DNA from: Rhodospirillales bacterium
GTDB lineage: Bacteria; Pseudomonadota; Alphaproteobacteria; Dongiales; Dongiaceae
NCBI GenBank assembly: GCA_009885795.1
Contig: VFKA01000006.1
Span: 1-47,376 of the forward strand
DNA: 47,376 nucleotides
Reading direction: 5' to 3'
The translations under genes were made by a program, and so were the position numbers. Shown one piece after another: positions 4,171 to 16,353 of this stretch. Under the pieces are notes generated by a model. It saw nothing but the letters and a program-made list of their open reading frames with translations. It was not told where the DNA came from and did not search any database. The number at the start of each line of letters is the position of its first letter. The first letter of the stretch is position 1.

Positions 4171-5733
4171 TTATCCGGCCGGGTCGCAAGGGGCCTTCAT
4201 GCGAACGAGACCCCAGCCGAAGACCGGATCGCGGCCGGGTTCGCCGAGATCGACGGCCAATCCTCTCAGCCGCGCCTCGATTTGTTCGAGACCCGCGCCG
4301 GAATCGTCAAGCAGCGCCGAGGCCGCGGCCGCGGTGACAAAGGGCGCCGCGAACGAGCTGCCGGAATAGAACCCGCCGCCCTCGCCGGCCGCCGCCGCCC
4401 ATACGCTGACCCCCGGCGCCGCGAAATCGACATAGGCGCCCTGGTTGGACATCTCATAGGGATTCTTTTCCCGATCGATGGCGGTGACCGCGATCACGCC
4501 CTCATAGGCCGCCGGAAATGCCGGCGGCGCCTCCGGACCCTCGTTGCCCGCCGCCGCGATCAACACCATGCCGCGTTTGGTCGCGGTCGATATGGCAAGC
4601 CGCAGAAGCTTGTTGTCGCCGCCCGACAGGCTCAAATTGACGAGTCTGATATCGCGCGACAAAAGCCAATCGAGCGCCTCGGCGATCGAAACGACCGAGG
4701 CGATGGGCGCTCCGGTATCGTCGCGCTCGAAGATCGCGGCGGCGCTGAGCTCGGCCCCTGGCAACAGGCCGGTGGGGCCGCCCGAGAGCGCGCCAGGCGT
4801 GGCGCCGCCCACCAGGATGGTCGCGATCGCCGTGCCGTGGTCGCTCGCCGCCGTCTTGGCCCCGCCGGCCAGGAAGACCTTCTGGACGATGGCGGCATCG
4901 GCAAGGGCCGCGTTGGACTTGTCGATCCCGGAATCGATGATTCCCATGCGGACCCCGGCGCCGCACGCGCCGCCGACTTCTCCCCAACCGGTAAGACCGC
5001 GGGCATAATCCGGCGCCGGAATGGCGGCCATGCCTTGCGGCAGATAGGGCGCATAGACGCTGTGCACGTCGGTGACGATGTCGGGAAAGGCGGCGGCCAA
5101 CTGCGTGCGCGCCGTCGGCGCATCCGTGTTCTCGGGCAGCTGAAGCCGGGTGACGGTGATCCCGAGCGAGGGCAACACGCGTTCGGCAACGATCCGGTAG
5201 CCCATCTGGCGCACGGCCGCGGCAAACTGGTCATCGCCGTTGGCGACGACCATCTCGTTGGCGATGAAGCGGTCGTTGCTGGCGTTGGCCGATGCACTGG
5301 AACTCTCGGCCGACGCGGTCGTCACGGCCGGCGCGGGCGATGCTTCGCTGTCATCGGCATCCTCGTCGCTCGAATCGTCGGCGCTTTCGCCGCTCGAATC
5401 GTCGGCGCCTTCGCCGCTCGAATCATCGCTGCCTGAATCCGAACCGCTGCTGCCGTCGGAACCGCTGCCGCCATCGGAACCGCTGCCGCCATCATCGCCG
5501 CCACCGGTATCGCCGCCGCTATCATCGCCGCCGCCATCGGTGCCACCCTCGCTGGCCGAAGCCCAATCATCGTCGACGACGTACGACAGCATCGAATCCT
5601 CGGGAACATAAGGCGCCACCGCGATTCCCGCGGCGCCGAGCGCGATCGCGGCCACCGAGCCGCGCAGCAGGGCCGACAGCGACGGCTTCGCCAGGCCGGC
5701 CATCCGACGCTTCGGGCGCCGCGCCGGAGTCAT
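4171..5733 (-). CDS. Secreted/anchored S8 subtilisin-like serine protease
   Basis: The 520-residue protein has an N-terminal hydrophobic segment (about 21-42), a low-complexity Gly/Ser/Asp/Glu linker (about 60-132) and a conserved pro-region-like stretch. The subtilase domain spans about 255-505. The catalytic triad is visible: Asp267 (IIDSGID), His299 (DHGTAIA) and Ser460 (GSSFAAP), with oxyanion Asn397 (AAGNEGP). The start overlaps the anti-sigma stop in an ATGA, so it is the third gene of a sigma / anti-sigma / protease operon. The protease may cleave an envelope target or help control the sigma system, but that is inference. The extracytoplasmic position follows from the single N-terminal hydrophobic segment, which could be a signal peptide or an anchor. 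Confidence 0.9.
   Translation of the reverse strand: MTPARRPKRRMAGLAKPSLSALLRGSVAAIALGAAGIAVAPYVPEDSMLSYVVDDDWASASEGGTDGGGDDSGGDTGGGDDGGSGSDGGSGSDGSSGSDSGSDDSSGEGADDSSGESADDSSDEDADDSEASPAPAVTTASAESSSASANASNDRFIANEMVVANGDDQFAAAVRQMGYRIVAERVLPSLGITVTRLQLPENTDAPTARTQLAAAFPDIVTDVHSVYAPYLPQGMAAIPAPDYARGLTGWGEVGGACGAGVRMGIIDSGIDKSNAALADAAIVQKVFLAGGAKTAASDHGTAIATILVGGATPGALSGGPTGLLPGAELSAAAIFERDDTGAPIASVVSIAEALDWLLSRDIRLVNLSLSGGDNKLLRLAISTATKRGMVLIAAAGNEGPEAPPAFPAAYEGVIAVTAIDREKNPYEMSNQGAYVDFAAPGVSVWAAAAGEGGGFYSGSSFAAPFVTAAAASALLDDSGAGLEQIEARLRGLAVDLGEPGRDPVFGWGLVRMKAPCDPAG
5350..5560. repeat. Low-complexity tandem repeat inside the protease linker
   Basis: The DNA contains short imperfect tandem units, for example repeated TCGCCGCTCGAATC blocks near 5388-5425 and repeated CCGCTGCCGCCATC blocks near 5460-5495. 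They encode the acidic Gly/Ser/Asp linker of the subtilase on the minus strand. Such units can expand or contract by slippage, so linker length may vary among strains. Confidence 0.7.
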
Positions 5734-6410
5734 CGTCCCACCGGCAGAGTCAGGAGTTGCCAGCCGCCATCCGCCGAGCGGCAGGCAAGGCCGGTTTCAA
5801 CCGATGCATCCGTACCCTGTCGGGCTTCATGCCTGAACTCGCGGCACAGCCGCAGCGTCGCTGTCGCCACCTCGCCAAGGACAATCACCGTTCCCTCGGC
5901 GCCGCTCGCCTCATGCCGGTACTCGACGCGCGCGCCGGCCGCACCCTCCTCGAGAGCGCGCGACAGAGCGCCGAAATAGGCCGCTTCGGCCGCTCCGCCC
6001 ACGCTGGCGCCGGCCAGCCTCAGGCCATCATCCTCGCCCGGCCGGTTCAACAACTGGCCGCCGCCGACGCCGATAAGCAGGAAAACGAAACACGCGGCCG
6101 CCGACAACGCCAGGCGCCGCAAATCCGGACGCCACCCTTGCCGGGCGCGGCGTTGCAATGGCACCACATTGGCGCCCTCGCCGCCGGCCAGCAGCGCCGC
6201 GAGGCGCGCCGGCGCCGGGCCCAAGGCAACGTCGGAAAACGCCTCGCGCACATGGATGGCGCTGCGGCGCATCATGTCCGCCTTTGCCTGCAGATTGGAG
6301 TCGGCCGCGATCCGCGCCGCCACCGTCGCCGCGCGCATGGCATCGAGCTCGCCATCGACATAGGCAACCAGCAAGGCGTCATCGAAATCGCCGTTCGAAT
6401 TCGTTACCAT
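5730..6410 (-). CDS. Anti-sigma factor (transmembrane, ECF partner)
   Basis: The 226-residue product has an N-terminal acidic helical segment with the motif LLVAYVDGELD, typical of anti-sigma domains that mask ECF sigma factors. A single membrane segment follows at about 111-130 (LALSAAACFVFLLIGVGGGQLL), then a periplasmic C-terminal domain. No clear zinc-binding HxxxCxxC motif is visible, so it is not a classical ZAS protein. Its ATG overlaps the sigma-factor stop by 7 bases and its stop overlaps the protease start by 4 bases. Translational coupling and a one-to-one role with the sigma factor are therefore very likely. It probably holds the sigma factor inactive until an envelope signal arrives. 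Confidence 0.82.
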   Translation of the reverse strand: MVTNSNGDFDDALLVAYVDGELDAMRAATVAARIAADSNLQAKADMMRRSAIHVREAFSDVALGPAPARLAALLAGGEGANVVPLQRRARQGWRPDLRRLALSAAACFVFLLIGVGGGQLLNRPGEDDGLRLAGASVGGAAEAAYFGALSRALEEGAAGARVEYRHEASGAEGTVIVLGEVATATLRLCREFRHEARQGTDASVETGLACRSADGGWQLLTLPVGR

Positions 6411-6955
6411 GATCCTTCTCCTCTCGGGCCGGAGCCCGCCACACTCGTCACGCGCGATGAATCTTTTTCTTCGTTAAGAACCCTGCCGACGGCCAATCTC
6501 GCCCGCGCCAGGCGGCTCATGACCGTGCCGATCGGCACATCGAGTATCTTCGCGGCCTCCTTGTAGGAGGCTCCTTCCACCGTCACCAGCATCAGCACCG
6601 AGCGCTGGTCCTCGGGCAAATTCGCCACGATCCGGCGCACCGCCGCCAACGCCAGACGGTTTTCCACTTCGGCCGAAAGATCGCCGCCCGGCACCGCCGC
6701 CAGGACATTGTCGTCGACCGCCATCTCGCGATGCCGGCCGGCGCGGCAGTGATCGAACCATAGGTTTTGCACGATCCGGTACATCCAGCTATCGAGCTTC
6801 GTACCGGGTTGCCATTGGTGCGAGCGTGACAGTGCGCGCTCGCAGGCATGCTGGACCAGATCGTCGCCGTCATCCACCGATCCGGTCAGGCCATAGGCGA
6901 AACGGCGAAGCCGGGGCACCAGCGCTACCAGGTCTCTTTGAAAAGCTTCGTTCAA
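6404..6955 (-). CDS. ECF-type sigma-70 factor
   Basis: The product is a two-domain ECF sigma factor. Region 2 is seen in LVPRLRRFAYGLTG and DDLVQHACERAL; region 4 is seen in LPEDQRSVLMLVTVEGASYKEAAKILDVPIGTVMSRLARA (split here as overlapping motifs). I chose the TTG at 6955 (183 aa). It has GGGAGG eight bases upstream and gives the N-terminus NEAFQRDLVALVPRLRRFA, typical of this group. Alternatives are a GTG at 6997 and a TTG at 7054, both adding residues that do not resemble family members. It is followed by overlapping anti-sigma and protease genes. It likely transcribes its own operon and perhaps the neighbouring envelope genes. Confidence 0.88.
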   Translation of the reverse strand: MNEAFQRDLVALVPRLRRFAYGLTGSVDDGDDLVQHACERALSRSHQWQPGTKLDSWMYRIVQNLWFDHCRAGRHREMAVDDNVLAAVPGGDLSAEVENRLALAAVRRIVANLPEDQRSVLMLVTVEGASYKEAAKILDVPIGTVMSRLARARLAVGRVLNEEKDSSRVTSVAGSGPRGEGSW

Positions 6956-10948: not shown

Positions 10949-12406
10949 CTAATTGACGAGCCGGGCAGCGTCAACCGGCGCTCCGCCGGGGCTGTCGTCT
11001 GGCGACGCGACGGCCCGATTGGCCGCGACGGGCGGGGGCGGCGGCGGAGCGTCCTCGGGCTCTTTCAAGGGCGTCGGCGCGCTCTCCAATTTGAGTATCG
11101 GCAGCGCTTTCGCGGCCATGCGCGCCGGCTGGCGCCAAGTCAGGCTGTCGAACGCGCCGCAATTGCCGCACACCGCGCGCCACGGCGCCGACGGTGTTCC
11201 GCATTGTTCGCATAGCCAGGCCGCGTCGGGCGGGGCGTCGCCGGCTTCCCGCCACCAGCGCCGGGCGGCGGGCGAATCGCCGCGCTCGCCCTCTTCCAGC
11301 CGGGCCAGCAGCCGCGCCAGGCCGGCGGTCATCGGCGACTCATTGTCCGCGGCCGCGCGTTCGAGGTTGACGCGCGCCTCGCCCCACATCCGCGCATCGA
11401 GCGCGGCTTGTCCCAGCGCCAGCCAGCTCGCGCGCGAATCGGGGTTGCGCTGGGCCAATCTTTCGTACCGGCGCGCGCGCTCGATCGGCGTCTCGTTCGC
11501 AACCAGCCCGCCAAGGATATCGGCCAGATCCGGATGCGGCATCGAGGGCCAAAGCTGCTCGATCGCCTTTGCCGCCGCCTTGACGCGGCCGGAAGCGGCC
11601 ATGAGGCGCGCAATCGCGGCCCGGGCCGGAACGAGATCGGGAACAAGCCTCGCCGCCTCCTCGGCCAGCGGCAGCAAATCCTCGGGCACGCCTACGCCAT
11701 TGGCGCGCTCGGTCAGGATGCACGCGCGAATTCGCCTGGCGGCGCCGCCGTCCACGGCCTTCAGCTTGACCGCCTCCTTCAGGCTCGCCTCGGCGGCGAT
11801 CCAATCTCCCTTCTTGAGTTGCAGATCGAGCAGGGTCTTGACCGCCCAGGCCGTGCCGGGCCGGTGGTCGCTGGCGAGTCGGGCAAGCTCCAAGGCTCGG
11901 CTGTCATTGCCCGCGCGCAACGCCTGCATGAGCAGGCCGCGCATGCCCAGAAGCGCGCTGTCGGGCCGCTTCAGCATGGCCTCGAAATATTTCGCCGCCG
12001 CCATCTCGTCGCCGTTGAGCTGCGCGGCTTGCGCCGCCAGCAGCATCGTCAGCGCCGGCTCGTCCAACAGCCCGCGCGCGCGGGCCGCCATTCGCTTGGC
12101 GTCGGCGGCGTCCCCGGCCGCCACCGCGACCATGCCCTGGGCAAGCGCGCGATAGCCCTTGCGCCGGCGTCCCTCGCGCCGGGCGCGCGATACATCGAGC
12201 GGCGAGCGCGCCACCAGGCGCCAGACCCGGTAGAGGATCGCCGCCGCCACCGCGACGATCAGCACCGCCGCAAGCAGCACCCCGATCGCGGTGTCGATGC
12301 GATAGCCGAGCCATTCCAGGCTGACCGCCCCGGGCCGTTCGGCCACCCATACGGCCGCCGCCACGACGATGGCGAGCTTTACGAAGAAGAGCAGCGCTCG
12401 AAGCAT
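10949..12406 (-). CDS. HemY-like TPR membrane protein of the heme operon
   Basis: The 485-residue protein has two N-terminal membrane helices (about 5-20 and 38-62), as in the HemY_N family. A long TPR-like helical repeat region follows (about 80-390). The C-terminus carries a small zinc-ribbon-like motif CEQCG...CGNCGAFDS (about 408-435) and a Pro-rich tail. This layout is typical of alphaproteobacterial HemY-type proteins encoded after hemD or the mitofilin gene. It is not the protoporphyrinogen oxidase that is also called HemY in Gram-positives. It starts six bases after the HemD-mitofilin stop, so it is the last gene of that operon. A scaffold or assembly role in heme biosynthesis or membrane organisation is inferred. 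Confidence 0.85.
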   Translation of the reverse strand: MLRALLFFVKLAIVVAAAVWVAERPGAVSLEWLGYRIDTAIGVLLAAVLIVAVAAAILYRVWRLVARSPLDVSRARREGRRRKGYRALAQGMVAVAAGDAADAKRMAARARGLLDEPALTMLLAAQAAQLNGDEMAAAKYFEAMLKRPDSALLGMRGLLMQALRAGNDSRALELARLASDHRPGTAWAVKTLLDLQLKKGDWIAAEASLKEAVKLKAVDGGAARRIRACILTERANGVGVPEDLLPLAEEAARLVPDLVPARAAIARLMAASGRVKAAAKAIEQLWPSMPHPDLADILGGLVANETPIERARRYERLAQRNPDSRASWLALGQAALDARMWGEARVNLERAAADNESPMTAGLARLLARLEEGERGDSPAARRWWREAGDAPPDAAWLCEQCGTPSAPWRAVCGNCGAFDSLTWRQPARMAAKALPILKLESAPTPLKEPEDAPPPPPPVAANRAVASPDDSPGGAPVDAARLVN

Positions 12407-12412
12407 GGGGTG

Positions 12413-14260
12413 TCAGCCGCCGCCGGCCAGCGCGGATGAAGCCGCCGCGGCAAGCTCGGAGCCGGCCTCGTCCGCGGTCAAGCGGCCGCGCGCTTCCGCG
12501 ATCCATGCGGCGAGCGCCGGCGGCAGCGGGGCGGCGCCATCGAACTCCATGACCGCGCCGGAAAGGTCGCCCTCGCCCAGCTTCGCCTCGGCCCGTGCGA
12601 TGCGGGCGGCAATGTCCTCGCCCGGCACATCCGAACCGACGCGCCGCACGCTGACGAGGCCGGTCAGGCGCACCCACAGACGCCGATACCAATCGGCCGG
12701 GGGCGGCGCCGAGTCCGGGCCGGCCGCGGCGATCCCCGCCGGGAAACTTGCCTGCAGCTCGCCCGGCGTCCTGGCGCCGCGCTCCGCCCATGGCGCCAGG
12801 CGTTCCACGATCGCCCCCAGCGCCGCGTCGGAGCGCGCGAGATCGCGCACCGTGTCAAGCTCGCCGGCAAACGGGCGATCGGCCGCCAACGCCGCGCGCA
12901 ACTGTCCGACCGCCAGCACCAGGGCGGCCTTGACCGGGCTTTGGGCACGCAATCCGGCGACCGTCGATTGCAGGACGGTGAGGTCGCCCTGCAGCGCCGC
13001 CATCTCGGTCCGCAGCGTTTGGTTCTCGCGCTCCAGGCGTTCCATCAGCGCCGGGTCCACGTTCGGCATCGGCGGCGGCGAGTCGGGCGCTTCCGGCGCC
13101 GGCTCGGCCGGCCGGCGTTCGAGCGCGTTCAGCCGCGCCATGATGTCATCGGGCACCGTCGGCGGCGGCGCGGTGTATACCTCATTCACCTGTTCGCGCA
13201 GATTCTCGATCTCCTTCGCGGTCTCGTCGATGCGCGCGCCAAGCGCCGCGATCTCATCGCCGGCGGGCGTTTCCTTCGGCGCCGATTCGAGCGCCGCCAC
13301 GCGCTCGTCAAGCCCCCGCAGCTCGGCGCGCAGATCGTTGATCGCGACCTGCAAGGCCGGGTCGGCGGCGGGCGGCGGGCTTGCGAACCAATCGAGCTGG
13401 CTGGCCGCGATCGCCGCCACGACGCCGGCCAAGACAATCAGGGCCACGGCAAGGGCGGCCTTGAATCCGCCTCGCTTCGCCGGCGCCGCTTGCGCCCGCG
13501 CCGGCGCCTCGACGGGCCGCGCGGACCCCGCAAGCTCGCTGTCGATCAGCTCCAGCATGCCGGCGAGGTCGGGCCGCCCGGCGCCGCGAACCTCGCGCCA
13601 GGGCAGCGCGCCGGCGGCCTTGGCGACGGCGGGGCTGAGGCAAAGGGCGACCGCTTGCCGGCAGCCGTCGATCAGCGCGTCGGCGCTAGGTCCGGAATCC
13701 TCGATCCGCGCCAATTCGGCGAAGGTCGTCGCGGTGCGCGGCGAAAAGAACAGCACCGCGTCGAATCGCTTGGCCGCCAACCGCTCGCGCACGCCGGCGG
13801 CCAGCCGCTCGGCGGGCTTGGCCTCGTAGAGAACGGCGCGTTGCACGGTAAACCCGGCCTCGCCCAGCCGCCCGGCGAGATCGCCCGCGACGACGCTGCC
13901 CGCGACGTGCAGCAGCCCGCCGTCCGCGGGCTTCAATCGTTCGGCCGCCAGCCGCGCCAGATCCTCGACATTACCTTGCGCGCTTGTCACCTCGGTAAAG
14001 CCGGCGGCGCGAAGTGCCGCGGCACTTCCCTCCCCGACGGCCAAGGCGCGCAAATCGCGCCGCGCCGAAAGCTGCGCAAAGGCGCGCACGCCGTTCGCCG
14101 ACGTGAACAGGATCGCCTGCACGCCGGCAAGTTCGACGGCGGCGCCGGCGATGGGGCGCACGCTCAACAGCGGCTCGATCTCGACTTCGACGCCGCGCTG
14201 GCGCAACGCGTCGGCCAAGGGAGCGGCGTCCTCTTCCGGCCGGGTGACTAGGACACGCAT
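12413..14260 (-). CDS. hemD: Uroporphyrinogen-III synthase fused to mitofilin (Mic60-like) protein
   Basis: The 615-residue product joins two proteins in one uninterrupted frame. Residues 1-240 are uroporphyrinogen-III synthase (opening VLVTRPEEDAAPLADAL, with ILFTSANGVRAFA and VLFFSPRTATTF), which cyclises hydroxymethylbilane. Residues 265-288 form a membrane helix. Coiled-coil segments follow at about 300-360 and 405-440. The C-terminal domain (about 450-610, with LTGLVSVRRVG and ARAEAKLGEGDLSGAV) matches alphaproteobacterial mitofilin/Mic60-like proteins. In related genomes these are usually two adjacent genes. The ATG at 14260 has AGAGGA upstream; an ATG at 14275 is an alternative. It lies between hemC and the hemY-like gene. 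Confidence 0.88.
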   Translation of the reverse strand: MRVLVTRPEEDAAPLADALRQRGVEVEIEPLLSVRPIAGAAVELAGVQAILFTSANGVRAFAQLSARRDLRALAVGEGSAAALRAAGFTEVTSAQGNVEDLARLAAERLKPADGGLLHVAGSVVAGDLAGRLGEAGFTVQRAVLYEAKPAERLAAGVRERLAAKRFDAVLFFSPRTATTFAELARIEDSGPSADALIDGCRQAVALCLSPAVAKAAGALPWREVRGAGRPDLAGMLELIDSELAGSARPVEAPARAQAAPAKRGGFKAALAVALIVLAGVVAAIAASQLDWFASPPPAADPALQVAINDLRAELRGLDERVAALESAPKETPAGDEIAALGARIDETAKEIENLREQVNEVYTAPPPTVPDDIMARLNALERRPAEPAPEAPDSPPPMPNVDPALMERLERENQTLRTEMAALQGDLTVLQSTVAGLRAQSPVKAALVLAVGQLRAALAADRPFAGELDTVRDLARSDAALGAIVERLAPWAERGARTPGELQASFPAGIAAAGPDSAPPPADWYRRLWVRLTGLVSVRRVGSDVPGEDIAARIARAEAKLGEGDLSGAVMEFDGAAPLPPALAAWIAEARGRLTADEAGSELAAAASSALAGGG

Positions 14261-14285
14261 GGGATTCCTCTTCATCTTACGCGAT

Positions 14286-15224
14286 CTACGCCCCGGCCGC
14301 CGGCACGAAAAAGGCCGGCGGCGCGCGCCGTTTGAGGGCCGCGCCGGCGTCGCGCCCGATCGCGGCGGCGTCGGCCGCCTTCCCGCGTCGCTCCTCGCGT
14401 AAGACCGCGCTGCCGTCCGGCAGGGCGATGAGCGCGCGAAGCCTGAGGACATCGCCGTCGATCTCGGCCAAGGCGCCGATCGGCGTGCGGCACGAGCCGT
14501 CGAGCTCGGCCAGGCACGCGCGCTCGGCGCGCACGCGCAAGGCCGACGGTTCGTCGTTCATCGGCGCCAGCGCCGCGCGCATCGCCTCGTCTCCGGCGCG
14601 GATCGTCACCGCGATGGCGCCTTGCCCCGCCGCCGGCAGCATGTCCTCGGGATCGAGGATCGCCGTCGCGCGATGGCCAAGCCCGAGGCGCCGCAATCCC
14701 GCGAGCGCCAGCAACGTCGCATCGACCTCGCCCTCGGCCACCTTCCGCAGCCGCGTTTCCACATTGCCGCGCAGCGGCACGATCTTGAGATCGGGCCGCC
14801 GCGCCAGGGCCAAAGCCTGCCGGCGCAGCGAGGCGGTGCCGAGCACGGCGCCCGCGCGCAGCGTCGCTAGGCTGGTTCCCTCGCGCGCGATAAGGACGTC
14901 GCGCGGATCCTCGCGCGGCAGCACGCAAGCGATGGCGATGCCCTCGCGCAACCACGTCTCCATGTCCTTCATCGAATGAACCGCCATGTCGATGCGCCCG
15001 GCGATGAGTGCCTCATCCAGTTCCTTGGTGAACAACCCCTTGCCGCCGATGGTGGCAAGGGTGCGATCCTGCACGGTGTCGCCGGTCGTCTTGATGACAT
15101 GGCGGTCGATCTCGATTCCGGCATGGACGATTCGCAGTCGGCGCTCGACCTCGGCGGTTTGAACCAGCGCCAGCCGGCTGCCCCTCGTGCCGATGCGCAA
15201 CGCCTCCCTTGCCGCGGCCGCCAT
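14286..15224 (-). CDS. hemC: Hydroxymethylbilane synthase (porphobilinogen deaminase)
   Basis: The 312-residue enzyme polymerises four porphobilinogens into hydroxymethylbilane in the cytoplasm. Family motifs are clear: IGTRGSRLALVQ near the N-terminus, GKGLFTKELDEAL, AVHSMKDM and GTASLRRQA. The dipyrromethane-cofactor cysteine is Cys245 in LDGSCRTPIGA (usually GGC). Length is normal. It is the first gene of the hemC - hemD/mitofilin - hemY operon, 25 bases before hemD, and diverges from tsaD across 73 bases that must hold both promoters. Confidence 0.96.
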   Translation of the reverse strand: MAAAAREALRIGTRGSRLALVQTAEVERRLRIVHAGIEIDRHVIKTTGDTVQDRTLATIGGKGLFTKELDEALIAGRIDMAVHSMKDMETWLREGIAIACVLPREDPRDVLIAREGTSLATLRAGAVLGTASLRRQALALARRPDLKIVPLRGNVETRLRKVAEGEVDATLLALAGLRRLGLGHRATAILDPEDMLPAAGQGAIAVTIRAGDEAMRAALAPMNDEPSALRVRAERACLAELDGSCRTPIGALAEIDGDVLRLRALIALPDGSAVLREERRGKAADAAAIGRDAGAALKRRAPPAFFVPAAGA

Positions 15225-15297
15225 GGCAATTCTTTACGTCCTCGGCTCCGGCCGCGCAAGGCTGACTCCCTACCCTGGCCGACGTACACTCGCCGCC

Positions 15298-16353
15298 ATG
15301 CTGGTTTTGGGGCTGGAGACGAGTTGCGACGAAACCGCGGTGGCGATCGTCGATGGCGACCGGCGCATCCGCGCCGAACGGGTGCGCTCGCAAGAGGACG
15401 ACCATCGGCCCTATGGCGGCATCGTCCCGGAAATCGCCGCGCGCCGCCATATCGATCACTTGGACCGCCTCATCGCGGCGAGCTTGCGTGAAGCGGGGCT
15501 GGCCGTGACCGATCTGGACGGTATCGCCGCCACCGCCGGGCCCGGCCTCATCGGCGGGCTCGCGGTCGGCCTCACCATGGGCAAGGCGCTGGCCGCCGTC
15601 TCGCGCCGGCCATTCCTCGCCGTCAATCACCTCGAAGGCCATGCCTTGAGCGTCCGGCTGGTCGCCGATGTCCCCTTTCCCTATCTGCTGTTGCTCGTCT
15701 CCGGCGGCCACAGCCAACTGCTGATTGTCGCGGGCGTCGGCCGCTATCGCCGTCTCGGCACCACGTTGGACGACGCCGTGGGCGAAGCCTTCGACAAGGT
15801 CGCGAAGCTGATCGGCCTCGGCTATCCGGGAGGGCCCGCGATCGAGCGCCTGGCCGGGAGCGGCGACCCCGAGCGCTACAAGCTGCCGCGCCCGATGGCC
15901 GGCCGCCCTGGCTGCGATCTCTCTTTTTCGGGCCTGAAGACGGCCGTGCGCCACCTGGTGGCGGGGCTTGGCGCGAGTCTCGACGACCGCGTCCGGGCCG
16001 ACATCGCGGCCTCGTTTCAGGCGGCCGTCGCCGACAGCCTCGCCGACAGGACGCGGGCCGCGATCGCGGTGGCCCGCGCCGCCCATCCGGGGCTCGCCAC
16101 GCTGGTGGTCGCGGGCGGCGTCGCCGCGAATCTGGCGCTGCGCCGACGCCTCGCCCTGGTGGCCGATTCCGGCGGCCTCGCCCTCGTTGCCCCGCCGCAG
16201 GCCTTGTGCACGGACAATGGCGCCATGATCGCCTGGGCCGGTATCGAACGCCTGCGCTTGCGCCTCGTCGATGGCCTCGATTTCGCGCCCCGGCCGCGCT
16301 GGCCGCTCGACCCGCATGCGGCCCCGGCGGCCGGCGCCGGGGTGAAGGCGTGA
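15298..16353 (+). CDS. tsaD: tRNA N6-adenosine threonylcarbamoyltransferase
   Basis: The 351-residue protein is the TsaD/Kae1/Gcp ASKHA-fold enzyme, which transfers the threonylcarbamoyl group to A37 of ANN-decoding tRNAs together with TsaB and TsaE. Visible family motifs include LGLETSCDETAVAIV at the N-terminus, the metal-binding HxxxH in NHLEGHALS, LVSGGHSQL, GEAFDKVAKLIGLGYPGG and SFSGLKTAV. The ATG at 15298 gives the standard N-terminus. In-frame codons further upstream overlap the divergent hemC promoter and are not family-like. The gene is followed directly by YciI and EVE genes on the same strand. Confidence 0.96.
   Translation: MLVLGLETSCDETAVAIVDGDRRIRAERVRSQEDDHRPYGGIVPEIAARRHIDHLDRLIAASLREAGLAVTDLDGIAATAGPGLIGGLAVGLTMGKALAAVSRRPFLAVNHLEGHALSVRLVADVPFPYLLLLVSGGHSQLLIVAGVGRYRRLGTTLDDAVGEAFDKVAKLIGLGYPGGPAIERLAGSGDPERYKLPRPMAGRPGCDLSFSGLKTAVRHLVAGLGASLDDRVRADIAASFQAAVADSLADRTRAAIAVARAAHPGLATLVVAGGVAANLALRRRLALVADSGGLALVAPPQALCTDNGAMIAWAGIERLRLRLVDGLDFAPRPRWPLDPHAAPAAGAGVKA

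Follow-up and report, generated by a model that had tools for sequence, protein, structure and literature searches.

Uroporphyrinogen-III synthase (HemD) is normally a free protein. At the core of the mitochondrial cristae-organising complex stands Mic60, a protein of alphaproteobacterial origin. The alphaproteobacterial Mic60 (PF09731) combines one transmembrane helix, coiled coils and a C-terminal mitofilin domain, and its gene belongs to a hemC-hemD-mic60-hemY cluster. In the available portions of the literature, the bacterial protein is credited with membrane shaping (review PMC12136173), with membrane bending and with an influence on intracytoplasmic membranes (PMC12136173, PMC12631773). 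The gene order tsaD / hemC-hemD-HemX-or-mitofilin homologue-hemY has been reported independently, with the fourth protein called a diverged HemX homologue that is also homologous to mitofilin; the genes are given separately in the available part of that article, which does not mention a fusion (PMC7641849). One named family, the fused HemD/HemX (NCBIfam NF005411), joins HemD to a membrane protein. A HemD-Mic60 fusion was not found described in the literature searched; an earlier mention in the primary Mic60 papers is possible.

The window, a 47,376-nucleotide stretch of a contig (VFKA01000006.1) from a Rhodospirillales bacterium of the family Dongiaceae, carries the reported gene order with hemD and mic60 fused into one gene (Table 1). 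The first-pass annotation had HemD running without a stop into a membrane helix, coiled coils and a C-terminal mitofilin domain, and placed Mic60 among heme genes; both statements hold. The frame is single and continuous, HEM4 and Mitofilin both score over their Pfam cut-offs within it, and the helix prediction and the AlphaFold2 model of the whole protein (mean pLDDT 78.5) agree with this architecture. At the locus, tsaD is divergent to hemC, hemD-mic60 and hemY, and the order with heme genes is retained at nearly all loci read. Starting at an alternative upstream ATG in the same frame (14275) would lengthen the protein by five residues, but the ATG at 14260 is favoured because a Shine-Dalgarno-like sequence precedes it. 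The neighbouring hemY-like protein carries a C-terminal CxxC...CxxC pattern that weakly resembles the LapB zinc ribbon (E 0.015, short of the cut-off).

Table 1. Features of the hemD-mic60 locus, with positions in the window.
Feature	Position	Strand	Basis
hemD-mic60 fusion gene, 615 aa, ATG at 14260, stop at 12413-12415	12413..14260	minus	frame, Pfam
HemD (uroporphyrinogen-III synthase) domain, residues 1-240	13541..14260	minus	Pfam, model, Foldseek
Linker, residues 241-267, without in-frame ATG, GTG or TTG	13460..13540	minus	sequence; model
Single transmembrane helix, about residues 268-286	13403..13459	minus	hydrophobicity prediction
Coiled-coil region, predicted long helices within residues 301-440	12941..13360	minus	AlphaFold2 model
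Mitofilin domain, residues 407-603	12452..13042	minus	Pfam PF09731; profile match to MIC60
Shine-Dalgarno-like AAGAGGA, 5 nt before ATG 14260	14266..14272	minus	read from sequence
hemC, hydroxymethylbilane synthase, upstream neighbour	14286..15224	minus	TIGR00212, 347.9 bits, cut-off 164
hemY-like gene (HemY_N, TPR), downstream neighbour	10949..12406	minus	PF07219, 93.5 bits, cut-off 31
tsaD, divergent neighbour	15295..16353	plus	TIGR03723, 405.6 bits, cut-off 296.1

The first half shares with HemD the whole domain and the predicted fold of the solved enzymes. Pfam HEM4 (PF02602) covers residues 15-237 (E 1.3e-38, 132.9 bits against a cut-off of 27.5), and the structure prediction proposed in the first-pass annotation returned a confident HemD fold: pLDDT is mostly above 90 in this region, and all 13 Foldseek matches under E 0.001 are HemDs, led by the solved structures 3re1 (E 2.7e-11) and 4es6 (E 3.4e-10). 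Many HemD positions are invariant across 17 fusions. Since the fusion protein reaches none of the NCBIfam HemD equivalog cut-offs, with a best score of 113.8 of 223 bits (NF006621), it is not filed under an equivalog, and its membership of the Pfam family rests on the HEM4 match and the fold. URO-D, which consumes the HemD product in the next step of the pathway, is present in the genome, so a need for HemD function is expected.

The second half is assigned to Mic60 by profiles. The mitofilin match, whose failure under profile search the first-pass annotation had held against its own reading, survives (E 8.7e-8, 32.0 bits against a cut-off of 27.4). When a profile (A3) was built from nothing but the C-terminal part of 12 Dongia-family fusions, it recovered the solved MIC60 construct 7pv1 at E 2.9e-7, the others among the matches listed standing at E 0.007 or worse. 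A broader profile, from 24 Mic60 halves of fused as well as separate proteins, likewise hits 7pv1 (E 2.2e-10), together with many coiled-coil matches. Structural comparison of the Mic60-half model by Foldseek / VIA-align gave nothing below E 0.001 and no MIC60 among the matches listed, and helical proteins match middlingly by chance. As for Mic60, one transmembrane helix followed by coiled coil is predicted. The protein differs from the Mic60 described, which is more often separate, in that its predicted cytoplasmic N-terminus is a whole HemD enzyme. Against NF005411 it scores 26.1 of 414 bits, over residues 1-252 only, which is the HemD side, whereas its second half is mitofilin. HemX itself (PF04375) has no match in the window's genome and none in the fusion protein at E 1 or below, and a profile-profile comparison of the Mic60 half with HemX aligned only 20 columns, with a probability of 47%. 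Judged by the NF005411 score and the lack of a PF04375 match, the window's protein lies outside the fused HemD/HemX family.

The linker between the halves is the shortest within its family, and pLDDT is below 50 from residue 248 onward, through most of its length. By the positive-inside rule, the distribution of lysine and arginine around a membrane helix indicates the cytoplasmic side. Four of these residues stand in the 15 positions before the window's helix and none in the 15 after it; of the 50 fused proteins, 41 show such an excess ahead of the helix and nine do not. HemD is placed in the cytoplasm because of this excess, and the predicted topology has the Mic60 part in the periplasm. The tether proposed in the first-pass annotation, HemD held by a continuous frame to a predicted membrane anchor, is supported; unlike the free enzyme, this HemD would be bound to the membrane by fusion.

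The genome (103 contigs, estimated to be 99.89% complete) has one HEM4 match and one Mitofilin match, both to the hemD-mic60 gene, and the searches with these two profiles found no second HemD or Mic60. Probably, the gene product is a single bifunctional inner-membrane protein born of stop loss, with both activities predicted. Its cytoplasmic HemD domain would take the hydroxymethylbilane made by the enzyme of the neighbouring hemC and turn it into uroporphyrinogen III; the single membrane helix would be attached to this domain through a short flexible linker, with the coiled coils and mitofilin domain working on the far side of the helix, in the periplasm, as Mic60. Since the linker lacks an in-frame start codon, all HemD of the window's species would be membrane-tethered and all Mic60 would carry HemD. 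We infer that both halves are active and that the chain stays uncleaved; post-translational cleavage inside the low-confidence linker is possible.

The fusion is conserved in the window's family. The first set comprised 61 genomes (the window's and 60 relatives), of which 50 had a HEM4 match, and longer loci were read for 40 relatives. Counting the window's, 16 same-family loci were readable; every one is fused and has a predicted helix separating HemD from mitofilin. A seventeenth locus (G012) is a fragment and yielded no HemD. Among the fused are Dongia mobilis CGMCC 1.7660, a member of Dongiaceae according to NCBI, and Dongia deserti. An assembly or sequencing error that joined two genes by removing a stop and a start, the objection that the first-pass annotation had raised, is rejected with hardly any residual doubt, the 15 of 15 readable same-family relatives being fused as well.

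The domain pair, for which the first-pass annotation had suggested a search in other alphaproteobacteria, is widespread there. In the first set, 4 of the 33 genomes of the same class but outside the window's family that have a HEM4 match are fused, a count for which loci were read where frames were long, the remaining open frames being too short for a fusion. Pfam scans of five candidates from outside the Dongia family gave Mitofilin over the cut-off in three (G044, G056, G059), below it in G051 (21.7 bits) and no match in G036. A further 80 loci, one or a few per family, came from the best matches among the 315 of 387 genomes of the class that have HEM4. Altogether, 50 of 121 alphaproteobacterial loci are fused, 68 are not, one is of the G036 type and two are without a HemD found; the fused proportion is biased upward because the 80 added loci were chosen with some preference for long frames, and the two profiles used on the 121 loci were built from alignments that include some of them. 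In this sample, biased towards fused loci, a fusion occurs in 24 of 72 families, and 6 families are mixed. A separate collection, of 80 loci from titled records that are partly of the same genomes, holds 39 fused loci, 37 separate pairs and 4 loci without a mitofilin match; its fused records include Ferruginivarius sediminum, Oceanibaculum pacificum, Rhodovibrio sp. and Rhodospirillaceae bacterium LM-1. Where the loci are not fused, a separate mic60 usually comes right after hemD; the genes are separate in Skermanella aerolata and in all Azospirillum records read except that of A. isscasi, whose locus shows no mitofilin before the contig end.

Three loci are unusual in other ways. In G036 (L068, 4124-5584), HemD, a membrane helix and a long coiled-coil-like tail share one frame with no mitofilin match, and the mitofilin domain is possibly lost or too diverged. 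One open frame of a small genome (L066 of G039, 4750-6414) has HemC and then HemD matches, a possible hemC-hemD fusion. Towards the ends of G044:C1 (near 2-4 kb and 4.597 Mb), the hemD-mic60 locus occurs three times, apparently through an assembly duplication of the contig termini.

The fused state appears, from comparison of these loci, to have arisen repeatedly among relatives in Alphaproteobacteria. On a quick FastTree phylogeny of TsaD, HemC and HemY from 134 loci, in which some long branches meet, the fused/separate label changes 27 times, at least 16 of the changes being forced by starred branches; gains and losses are indistinguishable from these counts. The Dongia-family fusions form a deep starred clade on this tree, and the window's nearest relative is 62% identical in the neighbour genes. 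At unfused loci, hemD and mic60 lie on the same strand in 62 of the 62 separate pairs found within one locus, and in the same frame in 22 of the 62, close to the third expected by chance; mitofilin was not found in six further unfused loci. For separate pairs, programmed readthrough at the end of hemD finds no support, as about one third of them share a frame. One genus (g48 of family f42) holds a fused gene (G246) beside two separate pairs, one with an ATGA overlap in another frame (G166) and one with a TGA in the same frame (G057), and the codons around the old mic60 start are very similar in all three. Such similar junctions in congeners, fused and separate, point to stop loss between adjacent genes. 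The window's fusion would thus have come from the loss of a stop codon between neighbouring same-strand genes of the conserved hemC-hemD-mic60-hemY cluster, an event that would have happened many times in the class.

Many fused genes may still yield a free Mic60. An in-frame ATG is present in the linker of 39 of the 50 fused genes, and strong anti-Shine-Dalgarno matches (-6 kcal/mol or lower) precede 18 of 74 linker ATGs against 271 of 3382 other linker codons (Mann-Whitney p 1.1e-6, an optimistic value since the rows are related). The second residue after the best-scoring ATG is A, S or T in 31 of the 37 genes with an ATG in a narrower zone, and the fused gene of G246 retains the start context of its separate congeners. 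Because linker ATGs are enriched for strong ribosome-binding-site matches, such genes could be predicted to make a second product besides the fusion, namely a free Mic60 initiated at the former mic60 start, a prediction that is about evenly balanced between true and false. It is inapplicable to the window, whose fusion looks obligate because its linker has no in-frame ATG, GTG or TTG. Obligate fusion is not the rule, since most fused relatives keep a linker ATG. Fused loci L036, L040 and L073 are examples of genes that keep an in-frame linker ATG, which often comes with a ribosome-binding-site-like sequence, and a member of the window's own family (G014) has a linker without ATG but with three GTG/TTG codons.

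The fusion might also be neutral, if the stop is easily lost, the cytoplasmic N-terminus of Mic60 can accommodate extra sequence and holding HemD at the membrane makes no difference. The uniform strand of separate pairs and their chance-level share of common frames fit this reading, as do the coexistence of both states in six families and within one genus and the presence of other additions at the same place, such as a helix-turn-helix (HTH) domain. Part of the recurrence could be neutral because stop loss is easy between adjacent same-strand genes. Neutrality sits less well with the Dongia family, in which every locus read stays fused across a deep clade, with the window's linker, which has lost every in-frame start codon and with it the return to a free Mic60, and with the named family that already joins HemD to the membrane protein HemX. 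On balance, a neutral fusion falls slightly short of an even chance.

Functional coupling, in which Mic60 serves as an anchor or scaffold that holds HemD beside HemY, other membrane-linked steps or heme- or pigment-rich membrane sites, is a more tentative proposal, and we lean against it. It draws on the order with heme genes kept at nearly all loci and, in the available part of PMC7641849, reported independently, on the recurrence of the fusion and on the existence of the fused HemD/HemX family. The separate forms, which are commoner outside Dongiaceae in the first set, speak against it. A putative coupling of tetrapyrrole synthesis to membrane shape, as first proposed for this gene, is plausible. 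It seems unlikely, at present, that the window's lineage, with no free HemD or Mic60 and the two fixed at 1:1 on one polypeptide, uses Mic60 partly as an anchor for heme synthesis; if it does, positioning tetrapyrrole synthesis may have been part of what the cristae organiser did ancestrally. The single bifunctional protein born of stop loss is the reading preferred here, and the recurrent fusions, the congeneric fused and unfused pairs and the seemingly obligate fusion of the window make the link between mic60 and heme genes directly testable.

In 20 of 112 Mic60 segments (13 separate, 7 fused), the cytoplasmic stretch ahead of the membrane helix carries a strongly conserved HTH-like domain; it is absent from the window's protein. 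The domain is Cro/YdaS-like and, by eye, far more conserved than the rest of Mic60. Four of four segments scanned passed the cut-off of NCBIfam NF046037 (carph-isopro). Examples are L048 (residues 318-377, fused) and L054, L065 and L070 (separate), and Azospirillum is among the carriers. Ten matches over this cut-off occur among the 61 genomes; by position, eight stand beside the hemD match of their genome, three of these eight being repeat copies in G044. The remaining two are a 90-aa frame (G031:C5) and a 481-aa frame far from hemD in G042, a genome with no mitofilin beside its hemD; the latter match (G042:C1:786498-786659) possibly marks a relocated mic60.
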